Of a stretch of 44,109 nucleotides of DNA, positions 21,560-25,414 are shown piece by piece (position 1 is the first letter of the stretch; each line of letters opens with the position of its first letter). The notes under the pieces were generated by a model. The model saw only the letters and a program-made list of their open reading frames with translations. It did not search any database and was not told the origin of the DNA. Origin of the DNA: Candidatus Peribacteraceae bacterium (lineage in GTDB: Bacteria > Patescibacteriota > Gracilibacteria > Peribacterales > Peribacteraceae); NCBI GenBank assembly GCA_022843885.1, contig JALHMU010000003.1, positions 1-44,109 of the forward strand, in the 5' to 3' direction. A program made the translations under genes and the position numbers.

Positions 21560-22033
21560 ATGACCAACCTGATCTTCAAAAGCAGGAAATGGTGGAAAAG
21601 TGATTGGGATTTGTATGCAGGAGAAAAAGTGATCGGTTCTTTCAGCATGAAGGGCTGGTCGTACACACGTGCCGCCGTACACATCGGAACAAAGCAGTTT
21701 GAAATTACGTACAAAGGATGGAGTGGAAATCGAACGCAACTGTGCGATGCATCGGGCAAAGAAATCGCAACGGCAGAGCCGATAAATTTTTGGGGGACGA
21801 GAGTAGAAATACGGCTTCATGGGAGAAAATACATTCTGACGACATCTGGATGGATGACACACTTCCTTGCAATGGACGAACAAGGTCATGAGCTCGTACG
21901 GCTTAAGGACCGTTGGTGGAGCAACACCTTCGATGTCACGATCAAAAATCCCGATGCAGAAGTGGAACTCCTTTTAGCATTCCTCCTCCTCTATCGAGGG
22001 ATCCAAATGAGAGCAGCGTCCTCTGGGACGTAG
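21560..22033 (+). CDS. Hypothetical protein, weak LURP-one/tubby-like beta-rich pattern
   Basis: Repeated beta-strand pattern (SDWDLYAGEKVIGSFSMKG..., GTRVEIRLHGRKYILTTSGWMTHFLAMDEQGHEL); family call is tentative. Confidence 0.6.
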   Translation: MTNLIFKSRKWWKSDWDLYAGEKVIGSFSMKGWSYTRAAVHIGTKQFEITYKGWSGNRTQLCDASGKEIATAEPINFWGTRVEIRLHGRKYILTTSGWMTHFLAMDEQGHELVRLKDRWWSNTFDVTIKNPDAEVELLLAFLLLYRGIQMRAASSGT

Positions 22034-22095: not shown

Positions 22096-22185
22096 TGGCG
22101 GAGAGAGAGGGATTCGAACCCTCGATTCCCGTAAGGGAATACACGATTTCGAGTCGTGCGCTTTCGACCACTCAGCCATCTCTCC
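22096..22185 (-). tRNA. tRNA-Ser(CGA), CCA encoded
   Basis: Reverse complement GGAGAGATGGCTGAGTGGTCGAAAGCGCACGACTCGAAATCGTG...GAGGGTTCGAATCCCTCTCTCTCCGCCA; anticodon loop CTCGAAA; long variable arm. Confidence 0.95.
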
Positions 22186-22230
22186 GTAAAGCCTGCAGAT
22201 TCTACACTGATCTATCGTGGAATGTGAGCC

Positions 22231-22276
22231 AAGAAAAGTGCCTCCTCCCATCAAAGAATATGATGAGAGGAAGCAC
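22231..22276 (-). terminator. Strong intrinsic terminator, 16-bp stem, minus strand
   Basis: Reverse complement GTGCTTCCTCTCATCA-TATTCTT-TGATGGGAGGAGGCAC-TTTTCTT; all 16 positions pair (two GU). Confidence 0.85.
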
Positions 22277-22297
22277 AGGTGGGAAGATCAGGCGGAA

Positions 22298-22387
22298 TTA
22301 GGCACAGAGCCTTTTCGGAGACCGATTTTTTGGATAGCTGATTTTTTTCTTCGGTTTCGGATAGGCCAATTTCCTCGACTTTGCCAT
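22298..22387 (-). CDS. Very basic 29-aa mini-protein
   Basis: MAKSRKLAYPKPKKKISYPKNRSPKRLCA; SD AAGGAGG five nt before ATG; strong terminator downstream. Confidence 0.6.
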   Translation of the reverse strand: MAKSRKLAYPKPKKKISYPKNRSPKRLCA

Positions 22388-22416
22388 GAGATCCTCCTTC
22401 CGCTCAGAGATGAGGT

Positions 22417-22435
22417 GAACCGATCCGATCGGTTC
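22417..22435. repeat. Perfect palindrome GAACCGATC-C-GATCGGTTC
   Basis: 9-bp inverted repeat with 1-nt centre, 30-48 nt upstream of the 29-aa ORF start. Confidence 0.8.
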
Positions 22436-22599
22436 GTTTGTAGACCTCAGAAAAAGAGCGGAATACCAAAGTACGCCAGATTCTATATATGTGCAATGCG
22501 ACACAAAATTGATATTGTGCAACGAAGGGAAGGGGGTACCATAATGCAAATTGTTCTTTGCATCTTTCTAGAATCAGAAGGAATTGGAGGGAATTTTCT

Positions 22600-22674
22600 A
22601 TGAATTTCGTCCGCTTCTTTTTCAGCTGCAGGGTGCAGTTGGCAAGCATGGACACTAGCTTTAGGAGTGTGTAA
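22600..22674 (+). CDS. Possible 24-aa leader peptide
   Basis: SD-like ggaggg before ATG 22600; MNFVRFFFSCRVQLASMDTSFRSV; its TAA directly abuts ATG 22675. Confidence 0.35.
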   Translation: MNFVRFFFSCRVQLASMDTSFRSV

Positions 22675-22839
22675 ATGAGTGGTCACTATCAGAAGCAAGG
22701 TGGTGCGAAACGCAGTCGTAACTGGAAGAAACGCGTGGAACGCGGAAGGGCTGGTAATCGTACGGCCAAAGTGATCAAAGAGCAGCAAAAACTGCTCCTG
22801 CAGCAGAGGAAACAAGAAGCAATCGAGGCGGCTGCCTAG
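22675..22839 (+). CDS. Very basic 54-aa small protein
   Basis: MSGHYQKQGGAKRSRNWKKRVERGRAGNRTAKVIKEQQKLLLQQRKQEAIEAAA; SD aggag upstream; strong terminator downstream; below the ORF-track length cutoff. Confidence 0.7.
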   Translation: MSGHYQKQGGAKRSRNWKKRVERGRAGNRTAKVIKEQQKLLLQQRKQEAIEAAA

Positions 22840-22858: not shown

Positions 22859-22892
22859 CACGCCTGGGGTTTATCCCCGGGCGTGTTTTTTT
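22859..22892 (+). terminator. Strong intrinsic terminator
   Basis: CACGCC-T-GGGG-TTTAT-CCCC-G-GGCGTG followed by T7. Confidence 0.9.
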
Positions 22893-24160: not shown

Positions 24161-25414
24161 TTACGTTCCTTCCTGCCAGCTTCCCAGATACTTCACCTGT
24201 TCAGGCGTGAGTTCGTCGATAGCCGTATCCATCGCGACAAGCTGAAGACCTGCGATGTAATCATCGATGTTCGGTGGAAGCGTAATGACTTCAGATGGAA
24301 GCTTGCCTTTATTATCGACCAAATATTTGCAGGAGAGTGCTTGTCCGCAGAACGAGAGACTCATCACTTCACTTGGGTGCCCTTCGGCAGAAGCGAGGTT
24401 CACGAGACGACCTTCACCAGCGATGTAAATCACGCGGCCTGACTTCATCAAGTATTCGTCCAAGTAATGACGTACACGACGCTTGCGGCTGGCCTTGCTT
24501 TCGAGTGTGTCGATATCGATTTCATGATTGAAGTGTCCAGAGTTTGCGAGGACTGCTGCATCTTTCATCTTTTCCATGTGTTCATAACGGATCACATGCA
24601 AGTTTCCAGACACCGTGATGAAGAGATCCCCGACCGATGCGGCATCTTCCATTTTCATGACACGGTGACCATCCATGAGTGCCTGCAATGCCGCAAAGTT
24701 ATCGACTTCTGTAACAATGACTTGAGCGCCAAGACCCTGCGCACGCATCGCAACGCCCTTTCCGCAGCTTCCGTAGCCGATCACCACAACGGTCTTTCCG
24801 GCGATGAGGAGGTTCGTAGAGCGGAGGATACCGTCGAAGGTCGACTGACCTGTGCCGTAGTAGTTATCCATCAAGTGTTTCGTCTTATTGTCGTTCACAG
24901 CGATCATCGGGATCTTCAAAACATTTTCTTTCTGCATCGCATGGAGACGAACGATACCGGTCGTCGTTTCCTCACATCCTCCGATCATCTCTGAAAGAAG
25001 TGCTGGGTGCTTCGTATGAATTTCCGTCACGAGATCGCAACCGTCATCAATGATGATGTGTGGCTTCGTGTCGATGACTGCATTCAAGAACTTGTAGTAA
25101 TCTTCACTGCTCTCACCTTTATATGCCCAAACCAATGTGTCCTTTTCTTCTGCAAGTGCTGCGACAATGTCGTCCTGCGTTGAGAGAGGGTTACAACCCG
25201 TGATCGCGACTTTCGCGCCACCTGCAACGAGCGTTCGAACCAAAATTCCTGTTTCTTTTGTGACATGCAGTGCCATTCCGATCGTGAGACCTGCAAATGG
25301 TTTTTCTTTTTCAAAAATTCCTTTCAAGTGCATGAGTGCGCCCATGCGTTTTTCGGCGATCTCCAAGTTGAGACGACCTTGTTCTGCGAGTGATGGATCT
25401 TTGACGTATGACAT
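24161..25414 (-). CDS. ahcY: Adenosylhomocysteinase
   Basis: GMALHVTKETGILVRTL, CNPLSTQDD, DNYYGTGQS, VVIGYGSCGKGVAMRAQGLGAQVIVTEVD, NSGHFNHEID. Confidence 0.97.
   Translation of the reverse strand: MSYVKDPSLAEQGRLNLEIAEKRMGALMHLKGIFEKEKPFAGLTIGMALHVTKETGILVRTLVAGGAKVAITGCNPLSTQDDIVAALAEEKDTLVWAYKGESSEDYYKFLNAVIDTKPHIIIDDGCDLVTEIHTKHPALLSEMIGGCEETTTGIVRLHAMQKENVLKIPMIAVNDNKTKHLMDNYYGTGQSTFDGILRSTNLLIAGKTVVVIGYGSCGKGVAMRAQGLGAQVIVTEVDNFAALQALMDGHRVMKMEDAASVGDLFITVSGNLHVIRYEHMEKMKDAAVLANSGHFNHEIDIDTLESKASRKRRVRHYLDEYLMKSGRVIYIAGEGRLVNLASAEGHPSEVMSLSFCGQALSCKYLVDNKGKLPSEVITLPPNIDDYIAGLQLVAMDTAIDELTPEQVKYLGSWQEGT

Follow-up and report, generated by a model that had tools for sequence, protein, structure and literature searches.

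We identified a short minus-strand unit within a 44,109-nt stretch of Candidatus Peribacteraceae DNA (the window throughout), the best explanation of which, held at about even confidence, is a real unit of ~240 nt, namely a leadered small mRNA for an orphan peptide of net charge +11 in a mostly leaderless lineage. As read from the DNA, the unit comprises a Shine-Dalgarno (SD) sequence, a small open reading frame (ORF), an intrinsic terminator and a leader with a stable single-sequence fold (Table 1). If real, it would count as one of the few small genes of Peribacteria that have a leader and depend on an SD, in a family dominated by leaderless starts and an altered 16S anti-SD, and would offer a natural reporter of whether SD pairing still functions in that family; for the present the evidence on this orphan is mixed, and its main use would be as a test case.

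Table 1 Features of the candidate unit and its downstream context, in positions of the window
Feature	Position	Strand	Basis or remark
Putative -10 TAGAAT within TATATAGAAT	22480..22485	-	Best -10-matrix site 5′ of the ORF; weak
Structured 5′ leader, three stems	22398..22463	-	Single-sequence fold
Perfect 19-bp palindrome GAACCGATCGGATCGGTTC, leader-hairpin tip or DNA operator	22417..22435	-	
Shine-Dalgarno AAGGAGG, 5 nt 5′ of ATG	22393..22399	-	
29-codon ORF MAKSRKLAYPKPKKKISYPKNRSPKRLCA + TAA	22298..22387	-	ATG 22387, sense codons 22387-22301, TAA 22300-22298
3′UTR GAUCUUCC, able to pair with GGAGGAUC at the SD	22282..22289	-	Full-transcript MFE fold
Intrinsic terminator, 16 pairs (2 G-U), loop TATTCTT, then TTTTCTT	22238..22276	-	
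tRNA-Ser(CGA), downstream context, outside the unit	22096..22185	-	Own putative -10 TAGAAT 22204-22199

Predicted transcription of the unit

The genome belongs to Candidatus Peribacteria, its best named prfB relatives all being Peribacteria MAGs. The unit is flanked by tRNA-Ser(CGA) on one side and by a divergent 54-aa basic ORF (22675-22839, plus strand) on the other. Its predicted RNA runs from ~22472 to 22231 (242 nt), the start being placed from the best upstream -10 element, whose last base is 22480; the short, well-bounded unit of about 250 nt put forward in the preliminary description is supported. A -10 matrix derived from 17 of the window's leaderless starts places the putative -10 only within the top 0.3 % of positions, i.e. 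it is weak. The terminator is strong and unidirectional, with stem arms at 22276-22261 and 22253-22238 beginning 21 nt after the end of the ORF and a folding z of -5.6, the fifth of 4404 80-nt windows. Its earlier description as a 16-bp perfect stem with a T-tract holds for the 16 pairs, eight of which are G-C, and for the TTTTCTT tail; the stem is not perfect, two of the 16 pairs being G·U. The nearest minus-strand gene upstream is ahcY, with its 3′ end at 24161, and none lies within 1.8 kb. Because no nearby upstream gene on this strand needs a terminator, a ~240-nt transcript starting inside the gap is likely, and we consider it quite probable that a discrete small transcript arises from the locus. 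A promoter near 22480 would start such an RNA, and the intrinsic terminator would separate the unit from tRNA-Ser(CGA).

The putative translation start and its chance expectation

The canonical SD reported earlier, AAGGAGG at five nucleotides from the ATG, is present on direct reading of the minus strand, and it is compatible with the genome's own 16S tail AUCUCCUU, with which it would form six base pairs and a G-U (-8.4 kcal/mol). SDs are rare in this genome but SD-led genes exist in it, because both copies of csrA carry an AAGGAGG start signal and are among the clear real starts at AAGGAGG-N-ATG sites; the two genes stand in tandem (L167/L168, at ~6748-7294 of contig C15 of assembly G000) and encode products of 72 and 64 aa with PF02599. 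The presence of two csrA genes also raised the possibility of a CsrB-like CsrA sponge, which was rejected on finding the GGA motifs of the unit outside the hairpin loops of the predicted fold; no CsrB-like RNA was identified.

Across the 861-kb assembly AAGGAGG-N3-9-ATG occurs 23 times compared with 14 for a reversed control, which is near background, and most of the AAGGAGG-N-ATG sites of the genome are not gene starts, lying inside or opposite other genes. Within 240 nt the motif would be expected by chance ~0.002 times at the control rate, and AAGGAGG at optimal spacing together with a 29-codon ORF fitting the transcript has a chance of ~6e-4, as estimated from the genome counts. A composite filter, set after seeing the case and requiring an SD and ATG followed by 15-80 codons and then by a terminator with at least 8 pairs, returned one site in the window, the mini-gene itself. 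Dinucleotide-shuffled versions of the window gave 0.03 such sites each, and no stem of 14 or more appeared in 200 shuffles. We judge it a little more probable than not that the transcript encodes the peptide.

These counts bear on the reading that there is no functional unit here, in which a terminator-like hairpin insulates tRNA-Ser and the ORF arose by chance in an A-rich spacer. The near-control number of AAGGAGG-N-ATG sites genome-wide is in keeping with it, as are the weak promoter, the orphan sequence and the codon usage described below; nevertheless the composite of SD, ORF and terminator is rare, the terminator requires a minus-strand transcript to stop and the leader fold is stable, and we regard this reading as unlikely.

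Predicted leaderless starts and erosion of the anti-SD

As first noted, the unit stands apart from the window's otherwise leaderless style, and it has a structured leader. A TANNNT -10 element lies 5-10 nt 5′ of the start codon in 17 of 18 gene starts examined, which are therefore predicted to give leaderless mRNAs, the 18 having been chosen from starts already leaderless-looking. These include 3676, 7061, 9345, 12071, 13047, 21560, 26445, 33978, 37128 and others. The 16S 3′ end in this genome (L190, minus strand) is AACAUCUCCUU, from which the canonical CCUCC has been lost. The SD of the mini-gene would thus pair with a slightly altered 16S tail, and the unit would be an ordinary leadered small mRNA among mostly leaderless genes.

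We surveyed the anti-SD with one pattern search requiring NNUCCUU, which sees two positions only and matched 83 genomes. Counted from the listing, in which one genome carries two different copies, the 45 genomes matched within the family of the window comprise CACUUCC (26), CAUCUCC (11), CAUUUCC (7) and the canonical CACCUCC (1), so that CCUCC is missing from 44 of the 45, with CUUCC, UUUCC or UCUCC in its place. The 38 matching genomes outside the family comprise 32 canonical sequences and 6 CAUCUCC, with neither CUUCC nor UUUCC among them. Candidatus Peribacter riflensis has been listed among SD-scarce organisms without CCUCC (PMC10783764). On these 16S sequences, erosion of the anti-SD extends across nearly the whole family, having been known before for that organism. 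This family-wide pattern seems to merit separate study and is more interesting than the mini-gene.

Peptide composition and codon usage

The peptide contains eight Lys and three Arg, exactly the 11 Lys/Arg residues in 29 first noted, and no Asp or Glu, giving a net charge of +11; it is hydrophilic and has no hydrophobic stretch. It may bind nucleic acid. Codon usage was scored per 28 codons against 25 genes of the window. The ORF scores -5.2 (-4.5 counting the start codon) where real genes have a mean of 8.2 and an sd of 4.6, which places it under every 28-codon window of real genes and outside the codon usage of its host. The +2 frame scores +5.6 and is more gene-like than the ORF, but has no start codon. 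All three Arg codons of the ORF are rare (AGG, CGG, AGG), AGG and CGG making up 17 of 430 Arg codons here (4 %), and for a typical gene three such codons have P ~6e-5; in the real bL20 and bL35 genes, both present in the window, most Arg codons are CGT/CGC. On this scoring the codons speak against an ordinary gene. Of the suggestion that the product is a nucleic-acid- or ribosome-binding mini-protein, a ribosomal or house-keeping type is disfavoured because the Arg codons are all AGG/CGG and relatives do not have the peptide. Two further proposals for the ORF were set aside: an in-frame extension to 83 aa has a non-coding upstream part, and an attenuator leader peptide for tRNA-Ser does not fit a single TCG codon without a run.

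The same codon scores enter into the reading of the locus as a structured non-coding small RNA, whose working parts are the 5′ hairpin and the terminator and whose SD and ORF are incidental. Non-gene-like codons, the folding z-scores of leader and terminator and the mostly spurious nature of the genome's SD-ATG pairs are all consistent with it, but an optimally spaced AAGGAGG with a fitting 29-codon ORF is improbable in so short a sequence and the RNA has no Rfam match; we consider a non-coding RNA possible but rather unlikely.

Searches for homologues

Tblastn-type searches with the peptide against 59 relatives and 353 class genomes returned chance-level matches only (best E 0.049), and most of the top matches (19, less L123 and L126) lie in unrelated frames or contain stops. 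Nothing was found for the peptide in phages, plasmids, Pfam, NCBIfam, PHROGs or PDB, a DNA pattern search of IMG/VR gave no match, and the DNA of the unit gave short low-complexity matches only across the 353 class genomes. By these searches the mini-gene peptide belongs to no known family. Relatives keep prfB and often tRNA-Ser/ahcY, and none of the tRNA-Ser loci of relatives that were examined has the peptide. Conservation among relatives, which the preliminary description had itself set as its test, is thus lacking at the family and class level; this absence has little force, because the gene-like 54-aa neighbour is equally an orphan and the genomes compared include no second species of the genus.

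Predicted leader structure and possible self-closure

The 85-nt leader would fold into a tiered hairpin ending at the SD. Its first stem pairs UUCCGCUC with GAGCGGAA (22463-22456 with 22405-22398), its second UGAGGU with ACCUCA (22449-22444 with 22416-22411) and its third, the apical palindrome, GAACCGAU with AUCGGUUC (22435-22428 with 22424-22417). The palindrome reported in the leader (22435-22417) is therefore the tip of a larger three-tier hairpin, and it is unique in the 861-kb assembly when up to 3 mismatches are allowed. The leader has an MFE of -29.6 kcal/mol (z -4.1; z -3.9 and 23rd among the 4404 80-nt windows), calculated on a single sequence, and abuts the SD such that its final two bases are the AA of AAGGAGG.

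In the predicted full RNA the SD pairs with GAUCUUCC of the 3′UTR (22289-22282) at -13.9 kcal/mol, an energy matched by 1.85 % of shuffled 3′UTRs and so statistically weak. The unpaired probability of the SD is near 0 in the full transcript, and the SD is partly open in nascent RNA without the 3′ part. This model is suggestive of a full-length RNA that is a self-closed mRNA through 5′-3′ pairing; such an RNA may close its own SD through the 3′UTR, and translation would then be limited to nascent or processed RNA. An extension of this idea, in which the locus is a lineage-specific mini-mRNA with a strong SD amid an eroding anti-SD, gated by leader hairpin and 3′UTR as a regulated, SD-dependent exception where translation is mainly leaderless, appears distinctly unlikely.

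A structured leader and a plausible translation start within one short transcript could also point to a dual-function RNA, as was first suggested, acting by base-pairing or protein binding and serving as mRNA for the peptide. Nothing marks an RNA role beyond what the leader does to the ORF, and with no Rfam match or other pointer to such a function the suggestion is possible but unsupported, and we hold it very unlikely. The 5′-3′ pairing is likewise what would be looked for in a type I toxin-like mRNA, here with an opposite-strand antisense RNA from TACACT (22203-22208, plus strand), the second-best -10 score in the region. However, about two such scores are expected by chance in the region, the codons of the 128-aa ORF that overlaps the unit on the plus strand are not those of a coding sequence, and the peptide is hydrophilic without a membrane segment, making a toxin of this kind extremely unlikely. 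That antisense ORF (22217-22603, plus strand), preceded by a leaderless-type TACACT-N8-GTG, was rejected as a gene in its own right on its non-coding codons and lack of homologues.

Neighbouring orphan ORFs and analogous loci

Further orphan ORFs lie beside the proposed small mRNA. The 54-aa basic ORF at 22675-22839 resembles real genes in its codons and has the window's strongest terminator (22859-22885); no homologue of it was found in 338 class genomes. A 157-aa ORF (21560-22033, plus strand) has a leaderless-type promoter, and neither Pfam nor PHROGs gave a match for it. Both ORFs contain rare Arg codons, with AGG at two of seven in the 54-aa ORF and AGA (3), AGG (1) and CGG (2) among the 10 of the 157-aa ORF. 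Because these neighbouring orphans share rare Arg codons, the prfB-to-amine-oxidase stretch holding the 157-, 29- and 54-aa ORFs may be young or acquired DNA.

SD-led small ORFs were also seen near tRNA-Ser in two loci of relatives. Upstream of the same tRNA-Ser in L038 (1661-1780, minus strand) is an unrelated 39-aa hydrophobic ORF, MEAILRFLDLTQSIRGIVPISLALLVICVIADFLQSLRD, with an SD-like AAAGGA, a TTGACA/TAATAT promoter, a ~110-nt leader and a terminator, whose product may be a small membrane protein or resemble a type I toxin. Between ahcY and tRNA-Ser in L015 (690-815, plus strand) is a 42-aa Cys-rich ORF, MARKIKTKTGQCTACGYHRNCKACKAEQVRAQQAQAAAQKQN, with a GGAGG SD and no Pfam match, whose product is a possible zinc ribbon. 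Both are analogies to the mini-gene and not homologues.

Comparison with known systems

The peptide resembles the tiny basic ribosomal proteins bL36, bL37 and bTHX in size and Lys/Arg content but, unlike them, has no Pfam, NCBIfam or PDB match, is not conserved in the family and uses rare Arg codons. The mRNAs of hok-type type I toxins undergo 5′-3′ closure, and most type I toxins have a membrane segment. The unit is like hok-type mRNAs in its predicted long-range sequestration of the SD, whereas its peptide is hydrophilic and its antisense RNA is a candidate resting on a chance-level -10-like plus-strand site only. SgrS/SgrT, SR1/SR1P and RNAIII/hld are dual-function sRNAs, which the unit resembles in size, small ORF, structured 5′ part and intrinsic terminator; in contrast to these it shows no sign of a base-pairing function or conserved seed. 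Mycobacteria, as far as is set out in one report (PMC4633059), have leadered, SD-led genes for small proteins (mini-mRNAs) alongside many leaderless genes. The peptide described here differs in being an orphan with atypical codons, known from its DNA alone, but the unit shares with mini-mRNAs of the mycobacterial type the arrangement of a short leadered ORF in a largely leaderless genome.
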